Below, in pieces: positions 31,613 through 62,483 of a DNA stretch of 64,000 nucleotides. The position numbers and the translations under genes were made by a program. The stretch covers positions 1-64,000 of the forward strand of contig JAAZYR010000006.1 in NCBI GenBank assembly GCA_014239555.1. Reading direction: 5' to 3'. Position 1 is the stretch's first letter. Each line of letters opens with the position of its first letter. This DNA is from Acidimicrobiales bacterium (lineage in GTDB: Bacteria; Actinomycetota; Acidimicrobiia; Acidimicrobiales; Poriferisodalaceae). Under the pieces are notes generated by a model. The model worked only from the letters and a program-made list of their open reading frames with translations. It did no database searches and had not been told where the DNA came from.

Positions 31613-32209
31613 ATGCGCCGCCGTTTAACTGACGCCGAAACTTTGCCCGTCATGCAAAGGGCCGGACTCACCCCTCTTGAACCGTACCCAGGCGCCGATA
31701 CCCCATGGAAATGCAAATGTGAAAGTTGCGGCCATGAAGTTACGCCGCTCTACACGTCTGTGAAGAGCGGAAGTGGATGCCGCTTCTGTGGCGTTGAACA
31801 AAGGTCATCGTCTCGCCGCTTCACTGACGTTGAAACGGTGCCGGTGATGCGAGCAGTTGGGCTCCGCCCGCTGGAACCTTATCCAGGAGCTAAGGCCGCG
31901 TGGCTGTGTCAATGCACGATCTGTGGAACCAGGTCTTCGCCATCGCTCCACAATGTCAAAAGTAACGGTGGCGGATGTCGAACTTGCGCCAACAAGAAAC
32001 GTTCGGTGTCTCGAAAGGTCAACGAAACGGACGCGAGAAAGTTAATGGCCGCCGCTGGCGTGACACCCTTAGAGCCCTATCCAGGGTCAAAGATCCCGTG
32101 GCGATGTAGATGTGATGCCTGTGGACGCGACGTAACACCGCGACATTCGTCGATCAAACAAGGGCGAGGCGGATGCATCTATTGCGCAGGTAGGAGCGTG
32201 AAATGTTGA
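31613..32209 (+). CDS. Triple-repeat treble-clef/zinc-ribbon protein
   Basis: A 198-aa protein built of three tandem units of about 65 residues. Each unit has a helix (TDAETLPVMQRAGL and variants), the constant phrase LEPYPG (residues 22, 87 and 153), W-x-C-x-C-x2-C and then C-x2-C. The zinc-ligand sets are C34/36/39/56/59, C99/101/104/122/125 and C165/167/170/188/191. Each unit is basic, so nucleic-acid binding is plausible. Related repeat proteins occur in actinobacteria and their phages without a known function. It starts 21 nt after the MFS stop. Confidence 0.75.
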   Translation: MRRRLTDAETLPVMQRAGLTPLEPYPGADTPWKCKCESCGHEVTPLYTSVKSGSGCRFCGVEQRSSSRRFTDVETVPVMRAVGLRPLEPYPGAKAAWLCQCTICGTRSSPSLHNVKSNGGGCRTCANKKRSVSRKVNETDARKLMAAAGVTPLEPYPGSKIPWRCRCDACGRDVTPRHSSIKQGRGGCIYCAGRSVKC

Positions 32210-38931: not shown

Positions 38932-38940
38932 TTGTCTTCG

Positions 38941-40089
38941 GTGAAAGACTGGAGCCGGCCGGAGGCCTGGGCAAACATTCGCGAAGATGTGGCCAATTCG
39001 ACCACGTTGCCTCCAGAGGCGTACACGGACCCCGATTACCACGCGCAAGAACGAGCTGCGATCTTCGGTAAGGGTTGGTGCGGTGTGGCTATGGCCGACG
39101 AGGTTCCACTAGGGCGCGTTCTTGTTCGCGAAATCGCCGGCACCTCGATCATCATTACACGCAACGACGAAGGTGAACTTCGCGCCTACTTCAATTCCTG
39201 CTCACATAGAGGGACTGAACTCGTCGAGCAGGACGGAGAGATCGGAACCGTTTTACGATGCCCGTATCACCGTTGGGCGTTTGATCTCGAGGGCAGTCTT
39301 ATTGCCACCCCACTTTTCGAGAAAGAGCTGGTGGAGAACTTCGAATTCGATGATTTTGGTCTTCGTTCGGTGTGTGTTGGCGAGTTCGTAAACGTCGTTT
39401 GGGTCAGCCTGAACTCTGACGTCCCTGATCTCACGAGTTGGTTTGGGGACCTAGAAGAGCGACTTGCCGGCTATGCACTTGAACGATACGCAGTTCGTAA
39501 AACCGCCGCGTACACGGTAAACGCAGATTGGAAACTGCTTACAGAAAATTTTCAGGAGTACTACCACCTAGCGTGGGTGCATCCTGAGCTGGCTAAGGTC
39601 AGCCGGGTCGACGACCATTATCGATTTCAGGGACCGGGCCGATACTGCGGCCAAACTACAACCCCGGTTTCGGCGGGTGAAAACGGTGAGTGGACGACAT
39701 TACCCAACGCGACTGGACTGTCAGCCTCTGATGCCGAGAGCGGCCGTCACATTGCCCTATTCCCCAACGTAATGCTGACGGTTCTACCAAATCACACATG
39801 CACATTTCTGCTTGAGCCTCTCGGAGTAGGCAGGAGTCGCGAACACATAAGTTGGTCAACCCCTCACGATCCGAGCCCCCTAGATCTAGATCGATTGATC
39901 GACTTTTGGGTTTTAGTGAACGATCAGGACATTGAGATCTGTCAGAAAGCCCAAAGGGGAATTGACCGGGGTCGATTTGGTGGTGGGCGTCTATCTCCGC
40001 GTTATGAGAGACCTTTGCATCGCTTCTACAACATGTTGGCGGATCGTTTCGAAGGCCTCGACCGTTGCCCTGATGGTGACTCGAATTAA
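38941..40089 (+). CDS. Rieske non-heme iron oxygenase, large subunit
   Basis: A 382-aa oxygenase. The Rieske site is FNSCSHRGTELVEQDG and VLRCPYHRWAF (CxH...CxxH, about 84-108), and the catalytic iron site is ENFQEYYHLAWVHPEL with two His. Length and the ring of motifs match carnitine/choline- or glycine-betaine-type and aromatic Rieske oxygenases. A final acidic ligand is likely in VNDQDIEICQ. It is only distantly similar to the 536-aa enzyme at 25477. It opens the long plus-strand run that continues to 48554, though 44 nt separate it from the next gene. Confidence 0.93.
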   Translation: MKDWSRPEAWANIREDVANSTTLPPEAYTDPDYHAQERAAIFGKGWCGVAMADEVPLGRVLVREIAGTSIIITRNDEGELRAYFNSCSHRGTELVEQDGEIGTVLRCPYHRWAFDLEGSLIATPLFEKELVENFEFDDFGLRSVCVGEFVNVVWVSLNSDVPDLTSWFGDLEERLAGYALERYAVRKTAAYTVNADWKLLTENFQEYYHLAWVHPELAKVSRVDDHYRFQGPGRYCGQTTTPVSAGENGEWTTLPNATGLSASDAESGRHIALFPNVMLTVLPNHTCTFLLEPLGVGRSREHISWSTPHDPSPLDLDRLIDFWVLVNDQDIEICQKAQRGIDRGRFGGGRLSPRYERPLHRFYNMLADRFEGLDRCPDGDSN

Positions 40090-40133: not shown

Positions 40134-40925
40134 ATGATTTCCGGACCACTGGCTGATGCCTGGATTAACTGGAAACGACACCCGATCAGCGACCTGGACT
40201 ATAGAAATCAGGCAATGGCGGAGTTCAATAACTCTGGCGCTTTAGTTCTCCGAGGGTTTTTCAGTTCCGATTTCATAAGTCGTGTCGTTGCTGAATCTGT
40301 GGCTCGACAAGGGGAAGCTTTCTATGCGAACTCGACGCATAACGTCTATCTCACACCCCAAGACTCACAATTTTCCGATGATCATGCGTTTAATCGCCAG
40401 CTCGTGAGCAGCAAGGGCCTTATCGCTGATGATCAAATATCTGTGGACTCTCCCTTACGCGATGTGTATGAAGATGATCGATTTCGAACATTCCTCTGCG
40501 CTGTGCTTGCTGTGGAAGCGGTGTATCCCTACGCAGATAGTTTTTCATCTATCAACGTTCACTACGCGCCTCGAGGACGCGAACTTGGATGGCATTTCGA
40601 CAACTCGTCATTCGCGGTGACTACCTTGCTTCAACAGCCTAAAAGCGGCGGAATTTTTGAGTACGTACCAGAAGTCCGTGACTCAGATACAGGAGAAATG
40701 GCTTTCGACCGAGTCGACGCTGTTCTTAACGGTGCCGAAAATATCTCCCAACTCAACTTTGATCCGGGTGACCTAGTGCTGTTTAGAGGCCGAAATGCCT
40801 TGCATCGCGTGACCCCGACGGAAGGATCAGTCACCCGTGTCCTGGCAGTGTTTGCCTACAACGACGAGCCTGGTGTCGGGCTATCGAGGTCGGCACTTAA
40901 AACCTTCTATGGAAGAACGAACTAA
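40134..40925 (+). CDS. Fe(II)/2-oxoglutarate oxygenase-like protein
   Basis: A 263-aa protein with double-stranded beta-helix marks: GALVLRGFFSSDFI at the start, the HxD motif in LGWHFDNSSFAVT, and the distal His in DLVLFRGRNALHRVTPTEG followed by Arg in TRVLAVFAYNDEPG. This is the HxD...H iron triad and a possible 2OG-binding Arg. It resembles halogenase-like and amino-acid or phytanoyl-type oxygenases only at fold level. GAGGG precedes the ATG. It is the first member of the unusual cluster with the iron-sulfur pair. Confidence 0.82.
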   Translation: MISGPLADAWINWKRHPISDLDYRNQAMAEFNNSGALVLRGFFSSDFISRVVAESVARQGEAFYANSTHNVYLTPQDSQFSDDHAFNRQLVSSKGLIADDQISVDSPLRDVYEDDRFRTFLCAVLAVEAVYPYADSFSSINVHYAPRGRELGWHFDNSSFAVTTLLQQPKSGGIFEYVPEVRDSDTGEMAFDRVDAVLNGAENISQLNFDPGDLVLFRGRNALHRVTPTEGSVTRVLAVFAYNDEPGVGLSRSALKTFYGRTN

Positions 40926-41063: not shown

Positions 41064-41957
41064 ATGACGACAGTTGAGGGTGAAGTCGAAGCGACTGATC
41101 CCAGCGACCTAGAGGTCGTAACAAACGCCATTAAACAAGTTGGGATAACAGCGGGCGCAACGCTCGTCGGTGTCGCTGCCGCAGATGCGTTTAACGAGTA
41201 TGTCCCGGTAGGTCACAGGCCGGAGGATTTTCTTCCAGGTGCCCAGAGCGTAGTTGTGTCAGCGTCCCTCGGCCCAACAAATGCGGCCTGGCAAAGCCCT
41301 AATCGGCGTCTGATGGAAATCACTGGCTACGACTTTCGCGAAAACGTCGCATCCATCGTTATTGCTGAACATATAGAACGAACTCACGGCTATTTAGCCA
41401 TGCATGCCCCAGCCTTGCCTACTTCTGGCCAACAACCCCCGCTCAGTATGATGCTCTCAGCTGTGTTAGCCGGGCTCGGCACCAGGTCCATAGCCGCAAA
41501 CATCATTCTTAACCCGACCTACGGGATCATGTTTTTTGCGGCTGCTATCACCACTATGCGGCTAACACCGGATCACCAACTCGAAGAGAATGTGTGCCCT
41601 GCCCGGTCATGTGTGCGCATGTATGAGATGGAAGGGAAGACACCTTGCATGGCGGTGTGTCCGGCCGACGAAGGTGGCTGCCTTGACGCCACGATTGAAA
41701 ACGGTGAGATCACGAGCAGTTTCTTCGACCGAGAACGTTGCTCTACCCGTGCCATGAACTTCGGAATACGGGGGCACATCAAGCAGGTCGATATCTTGAC
41801 CGGAATCGATGACGCTGACGAACGACGAGAACTGATCTACTCGGACGATTTTCGAAGAAACATGTCATCGATCGGCAGGTACAAAGAGAGCGTCTCTCAG
41901 TGCTTTGAATGTATGCGCGTCTGTCCCGTAGGTCGTTACCGACGAAAGTTGAAATGA
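41064..41957 (+). CDS. Iron-sulfur protein related to QueG/reductive dehalogenases (copy 1)
   Basis: A 297-aa protein with nine Cys: C178, C183, C195, C199, C206, C226, C280, C283 and C287. The last three form CFECMRVCPVG, a ferredoxin half-motif (CxxCxxxCP), and TPCMAVCP resembles the other half. The N-terminal half (GVAAADAF, LPGAQSVVVSASLG) looks like the cobalamin-binding-type fold of QueG and reductive dehalogenases. AGGGGA is the ribosome site. The next gene is a paralogue with the same Cys spacing, coupled by ATGA. A redox partner or enzyme role is likely; the reaction is unknown. Confidence 0.72.
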   Translation: MTTVEGEVEATDPSDLEVVTNAIKQVGITAGATLVGVAAADAFNEYVPVGHRPEDFLPGAQSVVVSASLGPTNAAWQSPNRRLMEITGYDFRENVASIVIAEHIERTHGYLAMHAPALPTSGQQPPLSMMLSAVLAGLGTRSIAANIILNPTYGIMFFAAAITTMRLTPDHQLEENVCPARSCVRMYEMEGKTPCMAVCPADEGGCLDATIENGEITSSFFDRERCSTRAMNFGIRGHIKQVDILTGIDDADERRELIYSDDFRRNMSSIGRYKESVSQCFECMRVCPVGRYRRKLK

Positions 41958-42814
41958 TGGATGAACTGGATTGGGTATCGATCAAGTCTGGAATACTTGA
42001 AATGGCCCGCAAAAGGGGTGCCGAAGTCGCACGAGTAGGCGACCCAGCTCTCCTCGAAGACGCTGAACCCGGTCTTCGTCCATCAGACCTATTGACAGGC
42101 GTTAAGTCGATGATCGTGCTTGGAGGAGCTGCCCCTCGCGCCGCCGAATGGCAAAGCCCTCGGGTTGAAGTCATGGAAACCGTCGGCACAGCGGACCGCA
42201 TGGTCGCCTTGGGTAGTTCTGTCGCCCGACACATCGAGGAAAGCTACGGGTACTACGCGCTTAATGTTCCGACGGCTACAGATCAGGACGATAAGGCGTT
42301 CCTTGATTTTAAAGCCGCAGCCGTCGCCGCAGGGGCAGGCAGTCCAAGTTTGGCTGGGCCGGTTCTTGACCCTACCTATGGGTTTCTCTACTTAACTGTG
42401 ATTTTGACCACGCTTCCCCTTCCAGTCGACGGACCACTACAAGAGGCTGCTTGTCCTGCACCTCAGTGCGTGGAGATGTGGGATGAGAAAGGAACGACTC
42501 CGTGCATGGCGGTTTGCCCAATCGACGATGGTGGCTGCTTGGGAGGTGAAATCCAAGAAGGGCTGGTGATCAAGCGACGCTATGACGAAGATAAATGCCG
42601 AGACCGGGTTTATCACTACTGGACTCCCGGCTATCAGGCCGCTCTGGAACGAGCTCTGGACGAGCCCGACGCCAGAAAACGGAAGATGATCTTGTATGGC
42701 AGTTTCTTTACTCGGACGATGTGGTCGATCACATACTCAGGAGTCAGCCAAGGACAGTGCTTTGAATGTATTCGTGCGTGCCCTGTGGGCACCGAACAGC
42801 GGGAACTTATATGA
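41954..42814 (+). CDS. Iron-sulfur protein related to QueG/reductive dehalogenases (copy 2)
   Basis: A 286-aa paralogue of the preceding protein. Its nine Cys (C167, C172, C184, C188, C195, C215, C269, C272, C276) repeat the spacing of copy 1 exactly: 5, 12, 4, 7, 20, 54, 3 and 4. Both share WQSP, PTYG, TPCMAVCP and GGCL. Two tandem, translationally coupled copies suggest a heterodimer. The ATG at 41954 overlaps the previous stop; its own TGA overlaps the next start at 42811. Confidence 0.75.
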   Translation: MMDELDWVSIKSGILEMARKRGAEVARVGDPALLEDAEPGLRPSDLLTGVKSMIVLGGAAPRAAEWQSPRVEVMETVGTADRMVALGSSVARHIEESYGYYALNVPTATDQDDKAFLDFKAAAVAAGAGSPSLAGPVLDPTYGFLYLTVILTTLPLPVDGPLQEAACPAPQCVEMWDEKGTTPCMAVCPIDDGGCLGGEIQEGLVIKRRYDEDKCRDRVYHYWTPGYQAALERALDEPDARKRKMILYGSFFTRTMWSITYSGVSQGQCFECIRACPVGTEQRELI

Positions 42815-43167
42815 GCGGCCCGATGGAGCGAGGAGAACTCAACGGTTTTCACGTCGTCGATCCGGACCTGTACGACCGCTACAGAGCAGAGGTGTTGGCT
42901 CTTACTAATTCTTACCAAGTAGATATCAACGAGTTTTTACCAAACGACGGCACCAGAAAACGCGGTTTGTCGGACGCTGAAATAGCGGACCGTTTAGGGC
43001 TTGACATCCGGGACGTAACCGAGATCAGAGTGGTGGCCGAACATGACGAATATCCCATAGAGGAATACGAGGCATCGGCTCGTTTCAAGGATGCTGCAGC
43101 AGCGTCTTACCAAGAGGGTGGAGTGAAGAATCTCTACAAGGGCGATCCGCCACCAACTAGACGATGA
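42811..43167 (+). CDS. Small protein coupled to the iron-sulfur pair, function unknown
   Basis: A 118-aa acidic protein. The middle part (GLSDAEIADRLGLDIRDVTEIRVV) looks like a helix-turn-helix, while the N-terminal segment (GFHVVDPDLYDRYRAEVLAL) and the C-terminal basic tail are unlike a simple regulator. It starts with ATGA overlapping the stop of copy 2, so it is made in step with the iron-sulfur pair and may be a small subunit. I recognise no named family. Confidence 0.7.
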   Translation: MSGPMERGELNGFHVVDPDLYDRYRAEVLALTNSYQVDINEFLPNDGTRKRGLSDAEIADRLGLDIRDVTEIRVVAEHDEYPIEEYEASARFKDAAAASYQEGGVKNLYKGDPPPTRR

Positions 43168-43207: not shown

Positions 43208-44743
43208 ATGATGCCAACGCTGGGCGAAGCGATGGCCCGTGTCGGACGTCACTTTGGTAAGCGACCAGCCATGCGCGACAGTCAAGGCGAAACCAATTGG
43301 CGAGATTTCAGTGAGCGAATCACCGTTGCTGCGGGCTTGCTTCATGGCCTGGGAATTAAATCTGGTGAGCGTGTAGCCATCTATGCCCGCAACTCAAGTC
43401 GTTTTGATGAACTGAAATGGGGAGCCTTTCATGCAGGTATCGTCGCCGTTCCTGTTAACTGGCGGCTAGCCCCGATAGAGATTGCGCACATTCTCAAGGA
43501 CTCAGCTTGTGAACTGGTCTTCGTTGAAGCTGATTTTCTGCCGATTTTCGACGCGACTGAGTTAGCGCCGTGGCGCGACAAATTGGTCTGTCTTGCCGGT
43601 GAAGGTGCCGCTGACATATCAGACTACGAGAAGTTGTTTGCAACGGCCCCGGGGGTCGGCCCTGCTGACGTAGCACCTGATGATGACGCTCTCATTCTTT
43701 ATACCGGCGGCACTACTGGACGCAGCAAAGGCGTCCGTTTAAGTCACACCAACATTCTGTCGTGCGCCGCAGCCTTCACACTGGCGACGCGCGGCGAGCC
43801 TGATGACACCTACTTGCATTTGGCACCAATGTTCCACTCCGCTGACCTGTTAGGAACCGGTTGGATGCTGATGGGGGCGACACATGTCTATGTACCAGCA
43901 TTTTCACCAGCAGCTTTTCTGGATGCAGTGTCGGAACATCACGTCACTATGACAATCGCAGTGCCAACGATGCTGATGATGACCCTCACCGACCCAGTAT
44001 TGGAGTCTGCGAACACAAGGTCGCTCAGACTCATGGGCTTTGGGGCATCTCCCATGGATCCAGCGTGGATTAGGCGCACAGCCCAAGGTTTCCCGCACAC
44101 GCAACTTTTCAACTGTTACGGCCTCACCGAAACCTCACCCGACTTAACAGTGTTCGATCCCAACGAATTCCGACGAGCTATCGAAAACGATTCACCTACG
44201 CTTTCCTCAGTTGGCAAACCAAATTGCCTTGTCGATCTCAAGGTGACCAATTCCGAAGGAGACGACTTGGCGCCAGGGGAGACAGGTGTCCTCCATGCGC
44301 GCGGCCCCAACATCACGAAGGGCTACCTCAACATGCCTGATGAAACAGCAGCAGCGTTGAGCAACGGTTGGCTACGTACCGGAGACATCGCTCGGATAGA
44401 CGACGAGGGATACGTCTATCTCATCGACCGAGAAAAGGATCTGATTATTAGTGGGGGCGAAAATGTCTACTCCTCCGAAGTTGAGACAGCGCTCTACCAA
44501 CATCCAGACATTCATGAATGCGCAGTTATCGGAACAGATGACGAACGCCTCGGCCAAGTAGTTACAGCGGTGATCGTGGCCAAACCCGAAACATCATTGA
44601 ATAGCAAGGCGATCATCGACCACTGTCGAAAGCTAATCGGGGGATACAAGATCCCTCGACGCATCGAGTTCGTCGAGGCGATGCCCAAAAACGAACTAGG
44701 CAAAATCCTCAAGAATCGTTTACGTGACACTTACGCGGAGTGA
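43208..44743 (+). CDS. AMP-forming acyl-CoA synthetase
   Basis: A 511-aa adenylating enzyme of normal length. The P-loop-like motif is LILYTGGTTGRSKGVRLSH, the adenylate motif is FNCYGLTETSPD, the hinge region is GWLRTGDIARIDDEGYVYLIDREKD, and the C-terminal catalytic Lys is in MPKNELGKILKNRL. It converts a carboxylic acid, ATP and CoA to the acyl-CoA. GAGGA 8 nt upstream supports the ATG. It is the fifth gene of the run and precedes the dehalogenase-family gene. Confidence 0.94.
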   Translation: MMPTLGEAMARVGRHFGKRPAMRDSQGETNWRDFSERITVAAGLLHGLGIKSGERVAIYARNSSRFDELKWGAFHAGIVAVPVNWRLAPIEIAHILKDSACELVFVEADFLPIFDATELAPWRDKLVCLAGEGAADISDYEKLFATAPGVGPADVAPDDDALILYTGGTTGRSKGVRLSHTNILSCAAAFTLATRGEPDDTYLHLAPMFHSADLLGTGWMLMGATHVYVPAFSPAAFLDAVSEHHVTMTIAVPTMLMMTLTDPVLESANTRSLRLMGFGASPMDPAWIRRTAQGFPHTQLFNCYGLTETSPDLTVFDPNEFRRAIENDSPTLSSVGKPNCLVDLKVTNSEGDDLAPGETGVLHARGPNITKGYLNMPDETAAALSNGWLRTGDIARIDDEGYVYLIDREKDLIISGGENVYSSEVETALYQHPDIHECAVIGTDDERLGQVVTAVIVAKPETSLNSKAIIDHCRKLIGGYKIPRRIEFVEAMPKNELGKILKNRLRDTYAE

Positions 44744-44805: not shown

Positions 44806-45720
44806 ATGTCACAGACCATGACCTCAAACACCGGATTGAAGTTTGTTCGCACTCCGGAAGAACGATTCGCGGCGCTGGCTGACTTCGAGTACGAGCCGCA
44901 CTACGTTGAAGTTGACGGACTTCGGATGGCCTATGTAGACGTTGGATCTGATGCCGGCATGCCCATTTTGCTGCTCCACGGGGAGCCAACCTGGGGATAT
45001 TTGTATCGGAGGATGATCCCCCCACTTACAGAAGCAGGATTCCGTTGTGTGGTTCCCGATCTGATCGGCTTTGGTCGCTCTGACAAACCAACCGATCGAT
45101 CTGCTTATTCGTATGCGCAACACGTGGCTTGGTTAAAGGAATTCCTGAACGTGATCGGCCTCCGTGAATCAGTCCTGTTCGCACAAGACTGGGGGGGTTT
45201 GATCGGCTTACGAGTGGCAGCGGAAGAACAAGATCGATTCGGACGGATCGCTATCGGCAATACAGGACTTCCGATCGGAGAATCGCTTGGCGCTGGCTTC
45301 GACAAATGGCTCCAGCAGTCGCAGAGTATGCAGTTCATGGACGCTGGAGCGATGCTCCAACATGCAACCGCTGCGCGAGAGCTCACTGAAGAGGAGATGA
45401 ACGGGTACCGTGCTCCGTTTCCTGACGAGTCGCACATGGCTGGGGCTCGCCAGTTCCCAACCTTGGTGCCAATCACCCCCAGCCATGGCGGCGTGAACGA
45501 AAACCTCGCTGCTTGGGAAGTACTTGACCGATGGGAAAAGCCATTTTTGACCTTGTGGTGCCCCGATGACCGCGTCCTAGGTCACCTTCATAAAGAATTC
45601 GTTGATCGAGTGCCCGGAGCCGGCGGACAACCGCACCAGGAGTTTCGGCCAGGTGGCCATTTCCTACAAGACGATCGCGGTGAAGACGTTGTTGCCGCCC
45701 TTATCGAGTGGCTGACCTAA
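44806..45720 (+). CDS. Haloalkane dehalogenase (alpha/beta hydrolase, HLD-I-like)
   Basis: A 304-aa alpha/beta hydrolase with dehalogenase hallmarks: LLLHGEPTWGYLYRRM (oxyanion region, H58-GEPTW63), PDLIGFGRSDKP, and the nucleophile elbow FAQDWGGLIGL, where D128 replaces the Ser of esterases and W129 is a halide-stabilising Trp. Candidate remaining triad residues are D254 or D255 in WCPDDRV and H285 in PGGHFLQDD. These enzymes split carbon-halogen bonds hydrolytically to an alcohol, halide and proton. Among alpha/beta hydrolases the Asp nucleophile also occurs in epoxide hydrolases and fluoroacetate dehalogenases. Confidence 0.88.
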   Translation: MSQTMTSNTGLKFVRTPEERFAALADFEYEPHYVEVDGLRMAYVDVGSDAGMPILLLHGEPTWGYLYRRMIPPLTEAGFRCVVPDLIGFGRSDKPTDRSAYSYAQHVAWLKEFLNVIGLRESVLFAQDWGGLIGLRVAAEEQDRFGRIAIGNTGLPIGESLGAGFDKWLQQSQSMQFMDAGAMLQHATAARELTEEEMNGYRAPFPDESHMAGARQFPTLVPITPSHGGVNENLAAWEVLDRWEKPFLTLWCPDDRVLGHLHKEFVDRVPGAGGQPHQEFRPGGHFLQDDRGEDVVAALIEWLT

Positions 45721-60845: not shown

Positions 60846-62159
60846 CTATGCGCCAGATGCGGCGAAACCTTTATTCAGATCTTCGATGATGTCGTCGAGA
60901 GTTTCGAGCCCCACCGATAAACGAATTAAACCCGGTGAAACACCGGCGTCGTTCTGTTCGGACTCGGTGAGTTGCGAGTGTGTTGTGGAAGCGGGATGAA
61001 TAGCGAGACTTCGAACGTCGCCGATATTTGCTACATGGCTATGAAGCTCTAAGCCATCAATAAACTTTTGCCCAGCTTCGACTCCGCCTTGAATCGTGAA
61101 TGCCGGAACCGAGCCGAAGCCACGACCTTCTCCATAAGCCTGAAGGCGAGAGTGCCAGGGGCTGGAAGGTAATCCCGCGTACTGCACTTGTTCAACTTTG
61201 GGGTGAGCATCCAGATATTCCGCAACTGCTTGAGCATTTGCAAAATGGCGTTCCATACGCAGACTGAGCGTTTCTAGGCCCTGGAGGAAATAAAACGCGT
61301 TCTGGGGAGAGACCGCTGCACCAATATCTCGAAGTAACTGCACTCGTGCTTTTATGATGAAAGAGCCAGCACCTAGAGCGGGCCAGTAGGCCAACCCGTG
61401 GTAGCTCGGGTCAGGTTCCGTGAAGTTGGGGAATCGGCCGCTGGCACCGAAGTCGAACGTGCCGCCGTCAATGATTACCCCCCCTACCGAGTTGCCATGT
61501 CCTCCAATGAATTTGGTCATGGAGTGCACCACAATGTCTGCCCCGAGGCTCAAAGGGTTGAATAGGTATGGCGTCGCAACAGTGTTGTCAACCACTAGAG
61601 GAACCCCGCTGTCATGAGCGATTTGTGAGACCCCTGGGATGTTGAGACAATCGTTCCTCGGGTTGCCAATGGTTTCTCCGTAGAAGAGCTTCGTGTTGGC
61701 TTGGACGGCCCCAGCCCACGCGTCTAGATCATCTGGATCTTCGATGAATGTTGTTTCGATACCCATTTTGGGAAGCGTGTAATGCAACAGGTTGTACGTG
61801 CCTCCATATAAAGACGCGGACGCAACAATGTGGTCACCTACTTCAGCGAGATTCAAAATCGCAAGAGTCTCTGCGGCTTGACCCGACGCAACCGCTAACG
61901 CTCCAGGTATGCCAATAGCTGTTTCAGTTCCACCTTCAAGGGTCTGAAGCCTTGCTTCCAAAACCATTTGAGTTGGATTCATAATCCGGGTGTAGATGTT
62001 GCCTACTTCACTCAAAGAGAAAAGATCGGCAGCATGATTGGTATCGCGAAAAACGTATGAGGTGGTTTGATAAATAGGTACTGATCTGCTTCCTGTTGTT
62101 GGATCGGGTTGTTGGCCTGCATGAATTTGTTTGGTTTCAAATCCCCAGGTTTCGGTCAT
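60846..62159 (-). CDS. metY: O-acetylhomoserine aminocarboxypropyltransferase/sulfhydrylase
   Basis: A 437-aa PLP enzyme of the Cys/Met metabolism family. GFETKQIHAGQQPDP and RSVPIYQTTSYVF open it, SASLYGGTYNLL and the PLP-binding Lys K216 in VVHSMTKFIGGHGNSVGG follow, and YAGLPSSP, FTIQGG and HPASTTHSQL complete the pattern. It makes homocysteine from O-acetylhomoserine and sulfide (or methionine from methanethiol). AGAGAGG 6 nt upstream is the ribosome site and could pair with an upstream CTGCCTC. metX is not in view. Confidence 0.95.
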   Translation of the reverse strand: MTETWGFETKQIHAGQQPDPTTGSRSVPIYQTTSYVFRDTNHAADLFSLSEVGNIYTRIMNPTQMVLEARLQTLEGGTETAIGIPGALAVASGQAAETLAILNLAEVGDHIVASASLYGGTYNLLHYTLPKMGIETTFIEDPDDLDAWAGAVQANTKLFYGETIGNPRNDCLNIPGVSQIAHDSGVPLVVDNTVATPYLFNPLSLGADIVVHSMTKFIGGHGNSVGGVIIDGGTFDFGASGRFPNFTEPDPSYHGLAYWPALGAGSFIIKARVQLLRDIGAAVSPQNAFYFLQGLETLSLRMERHFANAQAVAEYLDAHPKVEQVQYAGLPSSPWHSRLQAYGEGRGFGSVPAFTIQGGVEAGQKFIDGLELHSHVANIGDVRSLAIHPASTTHSQLTESEQNDAGVSPGLIRLSVGLETLDDIIEDLNKGFAASGA

Positions 62160-62227: not shown

Positions 62228-62289
62228 GAGGCCAAGCCGCTATCTCTAGGACACTTCATTGCGTCGGTCGCTAGACCTCAGCCATATCC

Positions 62290-62483
62290 CTACACAAGGT
62301 AGGCAAGCACCTTGGGTGTCCACCCCAGGTTGCTGGGTGCACCAAAGTGCACCGCTCTTGATAACGAGACCATCTGAGCATCTTTTGGCGCATCAGGCAA
62401 CTCGATTATTGCGAGAGACTCCAGGGCGTAACCGTTGGACACTTTTTTGATTGAAGTGACGATGGTTTCTCGCTCTGGCACAC
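62290..62483 (-). CDS. Doubtful small frame upstream of metY
   Basis: The frame from a GTG at 62483 codes for about 63 residues (VPERETIVTSIKKVSN, then ESLAIIELPDAPKDAQ). The amino-acid make-up is protein-like and the codons look natural. However, its start lies only 8 bp from the start of the divergent gene at 62491, and no ribosome site is evident. Without it, 62228-62490 holds nothing that I can support. Confidence 0.3.

Follow-up and report, generated by a model that had tools for sequence, protein, structure and literature searches.

The window, the whole stretch of 64,000 nucleotides that was analysed, lies on contig C65 of a genome of 2.72 Mb (G000) and carries three overlapping genes that we refer to as A, B and C. 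ORF A (41064..41957, +) encodes a protein of 297 aa that resembles the double [4Fe-4S] proteins QueG and reductive dehalogenase (RDH), and it is followed by ORF B (41954..42814, +), which encodes a paralogue of A. The ATG start codon of B and the stop codon of A overlap by 4 nt (ATGA), and counted from that ATG the B protein comprises 286 aa. ORF C (42811..43167, +), whose start likewise shares 4 nt with the end of B, encodes a Cys-free protein of 118 aa with an HTH-like stretch. After C lies the gene of an AMP-forming acyl-CoA ligase (43208..44743, +), and positions 44806-45720 (+) encode a haloalkane dehalogenase (379.7 bits against a cut-off of 265) with the QDWGG nucleophile motif. A Rieske oxygenase at 38932-40089 belongs to the same gene run as A-B-C in the window, and a HalD/BesD-like 2OG-Fe(II) oxygenase is encoded at 40134-40925 (+). 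The metal motif of the latter reads H-F-D, which is the hydroxylase form and rules this neighbour out as a halogenase.

Elsewhere in the window, positions 31613-32209 (+) encode a protein of 198 aa in which a Cys-rich unit (C-x-C-x2-CG ... GC-x2-C) occurs in three similar versions and probably serves as a repeat that binds zinc. A SAM-I/IV riboswitch at 62254-62369 (-; 44.4 bits against 41.1) lies upstream of a gene at 60846-62159 (-), the product of which looks like a PLP enzyme of Cys/Met metabolism.

Putative cysteine ligands of the two chains

The initial annotation had described A and B as tandem paralogues with identical spacing of nine cysteines, and a script recount bore this out. Cys residues are found at positions 178, 183, 195, 199, 206, 226, 280, 283 and 287 of A and at positions 167, 172, 184, 188, 195, 215, 269, 272 and 276 of B, the intervals are equal in the two chains (5, 12, 4, 7, 20, 54, 3, 4) and neither chain contains any further Cys. 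The motifs WQSP, PTYG, TPCMAVCP and CPVG are likewise present in both. A and B share 34.6% identity over 286 columns in a nearly gap-free alignment, and because equal Cys spacing is to be expected of paralogues that align in this way, it does not constitute independent evidence. The evidence that goes beyond common descent is the invariance of the nine cysteines, not their spacing. An alignment of 20 homologues (10 A and 10 B), which come from Acidimicrobiia, Gammaproteobacteria and Alphaproteobacteria, has 297 columns, of which 42 do not vary, and these 42 include each of the nine Cys (hypergeometric P of ~1e-8, which ignores relatedness and the general conservation of Cys). Free loss of the cysteines among homologues, which had been named as an outcome that would speak against their role, was not seen within A and B in these 20 sequences.

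In S. thermophilus QueG, C184, C187, C190 and C243 hold the distal cluster and C194, C210, C236 and C239 the proximal one (PMC4646009). In a sequence alignment, eight of the nine Cys of A and B align with the eight ligands of the two [4Fe-4S] clusters of QueG, and these eight are kept in 20/20 A/B sequences as well as in a single-copy form of the family. The candidate ligand region of A (C178-C287; 41595..41924, +) follows the pattern C-x4-C-x11-C-x3-C ... C206 ... C226 ... C-x2-C-x3-CP, and that of B (C167-C276; 42452..42781, +) has the same spacing. Most likely, C178, C183, C195 and C287 of A and C167, C172, C184 and C276 of B form a putative distal cluster, and C199, C226, C280 and C283 of A and C188, C215, C269 and C272 of B a putative proximal cluster. 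Of the RDH motif pair CxxCxxCxxxCP ... CxxCxxxCP, A and B keep the second motif but not the first, which is replaced by C-x4-C-x11-C-x3-C; in the number of ligands, eight, they agree with RdhA. The gap between ligands 5 and 6 spans 54 residues in A/B, compared with 26 in QueG and 11-13 in the RDHs examined, and this 54-residue stretch is modelled as helices with lower confidence.

The remaining, ninth Cys is C206 in A and C195 in B; it lies within a GGC motif and has no counterpart in QueG or RDH. In the single-copy relatives of two genomes, G324 and G1476, the other eight Cys are present and the ninth is deleted, and the alignment marks it as an addition that is particular to the paired form. 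Since the ninth Cys lacks a QueG counterpart and is missing from two single-copy relatives, two clusters per chain are expected and not three; a third cluster is ruled out, with one leftover Cys per chain. The initial proposal that all nine Cys hold clusters is therefore not upheld, and of the two or three clusters that it allowed, two agree with the eight QueG-matched ligands, whereas for three there are too few ligands.

Family assignment, predicted fold and active site

None of A, B and C matched a Pfam or NCBIfam family above cut-off. With the RdhA model TIGR02486 (cut-off 160.35 bits), A reached 14.4 bits, B 21.9 bits and their homologues no more than 27.5 bits, and with the QueG model TIGR00276 (cut-off 200 bits) A and B reached 12.9 and 20.2 bits. 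The sub-threshold matches of B had E values of 1.3e-4 (TIGR02486, RDH) and 2.3e-4 (TIGR00276, QueG), both far below cut-off. When A alone was compared with solved structures using phmmer, nothing was found; a profile built from the A/B family alignment matched PceA (1.4e-4) and QueG (0.004), and profile-profile comparison of the A/B family with RDHs of related genomes gave a probability of 99%.

Structure prediction yielded models of A (pLDDT 78, pTM 0.75) and B (pLDDT 85, pTM 0.82). The A model matched QueG 5d08 with Z 16.2 (205 residues, 3.2 Å), NpRdhA with Z 14.1 and PceA with Z 13.6, and the B model matched the same proteins with Z 16.9, 14.8 and 14.4, respectively; human MMACHC ranked after QueG and the RDHs for both models (Z ~10). 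The models thus place in both chains the nitroreductase-like cobamide-binding core and double [4Fe-4S] domain of RdhA, with a predicted match of Z 13.5-15 over ~205-215 residues. When RDHs and QueG of related bacteria served as the outgroup of a tree, A, B and the single-copy relative formed a clade of their own (support 98). The sub-threshold profile matches, the family profile and the predicted folds agree with the initial assignment of A and B as iron-sulfur paralogues related to QueG and RdhA, and we conclude that they are remote relatives of QueG and the reductive dehalogenases. The literature counts only reductive dehalogenases and QueG among the class-III cobalamin enzymes (PMC7585037). 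A and B have the fold and the eight Cys ligands of this superfamily, and they are a third, uncharacterised branch of it rather than a new kind of protein; the best reading is that they represent a third lineage with the class-III cobamide reductase fold, which would bind a cobamide. Their predicted fold and the ligands of the proximal cluster are compatible with such a cofactor.

In RDHs, protons are donated via a Tyr-Lys/Arg dyad (PMC10463259), which in PceA is formed by Tyr246 and Arg305 (PMC4646009). In our sequence alignment, the Tyr column shared by RDH and QueG holds Phe in A (Phe91), Asp in B (Asp81) and Asn in the single-copy form, and the Arg/Lys column holds Phe or Tyr in A, Tyr in B and Gly in the single-copy form. 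The position of the catalytic-Tyr column moves by one residue between alignments, with profile alignments giving Asp in A and Ala, Asn or Gly in B, and Tyr occurs at neither candidate column in any A, B or single-copy sequence. Judged from these alignments, the dyad is absent from every member, so that dehalogenation of the ordinary RDH kind is unlikely. As a third branch of the B12 reductase family without the dehalogenase catalytic residues, A and B are probably the paired chains of a reductase not characterised so far. The column of the catalytic Asp of QueG is occupied by Asp in 10/10 B sequences (Asp110 in the window) and in the single-copy form, and by Thr or Val in 10/10 A sequences (Thr120 in the window). 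The QueG combination of an Asp-Tyr-His motif and a catalytic Asp is not reproduced in full, as Tyr is missing from the motif and Asp is found in B and the single-copy form only. Because Asp is kept in B and replaced by Thr or Val in A, B is probably the catalytic chain and A its diverged partner.

Distribution and genomic context of A, B and C

The window's own genome was compared with 40 relatives, and of these 41 genomes nine carry A and B, always in tandem; C is found in exactly these nine, a coincidence with a chance of 3e-9 if the genomes were independent, which they are not. Elsewhere the set is rare. Of 296 genomes of Acidimicrobiia, A+B pairs were found in the window's own and one other, and the single-copy form in one. 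Surveys of 390 genomes from the order and 398 genomes from the phylum of a Haliea-type MAG, and of 196 genomes from an alphaproteobacterial order, returned A+B in the starting genome only, while 200 genomes of another gammaproteobacterial family yielded one more pair; plasmid records and viral contigs contained no A/B relative. Both the A clade and the B clade (support 99 and 100, respectively) include sequences from Acidimicrobiia and from Gammaproteobacteria (Pseudomonadota), from which it follows that the duplication is older than the spread between phyla and that the copies travelled together. A and B are adjacent in every locus that covers both, no complete locus has A without B or B without A, and the 4-nt start/stop overlap of the two genes recurs in loci L030 and L043.

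In fully covered loci, A and B adjoin each other and C. A pair working with a small third protein, as had been suggested at the outset, is supported by the co-occurrence of the three genes in the same 9/41 genomes. A homologue of C (E 5e-15) also follows the single-copy form, so C belongs to the wider family and not to the paired form only. Together, the co-occurrence of A, B and C and the C homologue after the single-copy form favour a heteromeric A-B-C enzyme, in which the three proteins would be in contact. C has weak HTH-like matches (HTH_68, 0.02-0.1; Sigma70_r3, 0.07) and may act as a regulator rather than as a subunit. One relative has a further C-like stretch, a partial one (G023:C13:126941-127126, an open frame of 62 aa), which lies away from A-B-C and could be a contig-end copy.

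An orthologue of the acyl-CoA ligase (35-42% identity) also follows C in L028, L029 and L043 (gammaproteobacterial and alphaproteobacterial), and the ligase is likely a pathway partner and not a member of the complex. In the gammaproteobacterial locus L043, where this ligase lies downstream of A-B-C, an RDH of 408 aa (L043:151-1377, +; 177.6 bits against the cut-off of 160.35) is encoded directly upstream; it is the one locus with such a neighbour. Strict co-occurrence with RDH genes is ruled out by G019 and G023, which carry A-B-C and have only QueG-level matches. In L025-L027, the downstream part that is covered contains no haloalkane dehalogenase gene. The single-copy form and its C homologue stand at the end of a gene run in Acidimicrobiia (L045:1720-9955; L073), after phenylphosphate-synthase-like PPDK_N and PEP-utilising genes, and nearby are genes for a UbiX-like flavoprotein and for UbiD-like and HAD-like proteins, the last two names being read from sequence. 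We take this run to resemble the genes with which anaerobic phenol degraders phosphorylate and carboxylate phenol, the phenylphosphate synthase/carboxylase cluster. With an RDH neighbour found once and the haloalkane dehalogenase missing in L025-L027, the inconstant context does not fix the substrate; taken together, the neighbouring genes point to reductive steps in the breakdown of aromatic or halogenated compounds as the setting in which A-B-C may act.

The window genome also encodes an NpRdhA-like RDH of 701 aa with a degenerate N-terminal core copy (G000:C3:12777-13319; L064:2415-4520, -), which together with neighbouring matches lies over the RDH cut-off and which close relatives of this genome carry as well, and it has a QueG-type gene at G000:C65:150529-151032.

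A candidate reductase, its alternatives and known systems

On balance, we favour the view that A and B are paralogous chains of a heteromeric reductase with the nitroreductase-like, cobamide-binding, double-[4Fe-4S] fold of QueG and RDHs. Each chain would hold one distal and one proximal cluster, with electrons passing from the latter to a base-off cobamide. B would be catalytic and A its partner, comparable to the degenerate second core copy of catabolic RDHs, and C would be a third, small component that is always present, possibly as a cap over the site that is covered by the HEAT domain in QueG or by the C-terminal extension in RDHs. Most likely, the enzyme would use B12 to cleave an aromatic or aliphatic acid reductively, by dehalogenation or deoxygenation, and the neighbouring CoA ligase may act on this acid. 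More tentatively, A-B-C may stand for a third functional class-III cobamide lineage, in which two double-cluster chains divide the labour, the small protein completes the active site and an aromatic or CoA-linked acid is cleaved reductively with B12, perhaps by deoxygenation, without the dyad.

Several other explanations were considered. If A and B were a true RdhA, split and shortened, that dehalogenates natural marine organohalides by the Tyr-Lys/Arg mechanism, this would account for the fold in common with RDHs and suit the RDH neighbour in L043, the haloalkane dehalogenase within the window and the commonness of RDH genes in this bacterial family. However, the best score in the window is 21.9 bits against 160.35, Phe (A) or Asp (B) stands in the Tyr column and Phe or Tyr in that of Arg/Lys, the first Cys motif differs from CxxCxxCxxxCP, A and B group apart from RDHs (support 98) and the window genome has a separate, full-length RDH, all of which makes a true RdhA improbable. 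Equally improbable, in our view, is a role as ferredoxin-like proteins that feed electrons to the upstream Rieske oxygenase (38932-40089) and retain the cobamide fold as a vestige: the two lie in the same gene run and no obvious ferredoxin or reductase gene was noticed beside the oxygenase, but the Rieske gene does not adjoin A-B-C in L030, L043 and L029 (gammaproteobacterial and alphaproteobacterial), and both chains retain the whole predicted nitroreductase-like domain with strictly conserved residues.

The place of MMACHC directly behind QueG and RDH in the structural ranking (Z ~10), its heterodimerisation with a relative of the same fold and the RDH adjoining A-B-C in L043 could also suggest a complex that handles or reactivates the cobamide of another B12 enzyme, such as the neighbouring RDH. 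Yet a chaperone needs no two full clusters per chain, G019 and G023 have A-B-C with only QueG-level RDH matches and many relatives have RDHs without A-B-C, and we regard such a complex as the least probable of the explanations considered. A little less improbable, though still unlikely, is that C regulates transcription while A and B act apart, each as a homodimer with a substrate of its own, as the weak HTH-like matches of C and the differing active sites of A and B might indicate; against this, neither A nor B occurs without the other in any complete locus, and the 4-nt translational overlaps point to matched synthesis. The heteromeric A-B-C reductase, if confirmed, would be a third branch of the class, rare and spread by horizontal transfer, in which two paralogous chains are obligate and one small partner is constant; both its chemistry and its quaternary plan would be new among these enzymes. 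With ~2.1 kb of genes, it would also be a compact system for asking what a second core domain does, a question already raised by the vestigial domain of catabolic RDHs.

Our literature searches turned up no description of a paired QueG/RDH-like family; automatic annotation in public protein databases may exist. Among known systems, QueG (TIGR00276; PDB 5d08, 5d6s, 5t8y) is the best match to the predicted fold of A and B (Z 16-17, ~205 residues), the eight Cys of its two [4Fe-4S] clusters correspond one to one, and B and the single-copy form have an Asp in the region of its catalytic Asp. Unlike QueG, A and B have no HEAT-repeat domain, their chains ending ~10 residues past the last Cys and the fold match ending at QueG residue ~256-263; they lack the DYH motif, their first Cys motif is stretched from C-x2-C-x2-C-x3-C to C-x4-C-x11-C-x3-C, and they come as two paralogous chains with C in a genome that has its own separate QueG. 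With MMACHC (CblC) and MMADHC (CblD), a heterodimer of related folds, A and B have in common the predicted nitroreductase-like cobalamin-binding fold (Z ~10 for MMACHC, 6-7 for CblD), but those proteins contain no Fe-S clusters and serve B12 trafficking, not the reduction of organic substrates. RdhA (TIGR02486; PceA 4uqu, NpRdhA 4ras) is similar in its fold (Z 13.5-15) and its two [4Fe-4S] clusters, whereas A and B fall far below the family cut-off, lack the dyad, form a separate clade and are much shorter (286-297 aa), without the N- or C-terminal extension of RDHs. As for the pairing of cores, respiratory RDHs are homodimers, and in catabolic RdhA a vestigial second core mimics the dimer interface (PMC10463259).
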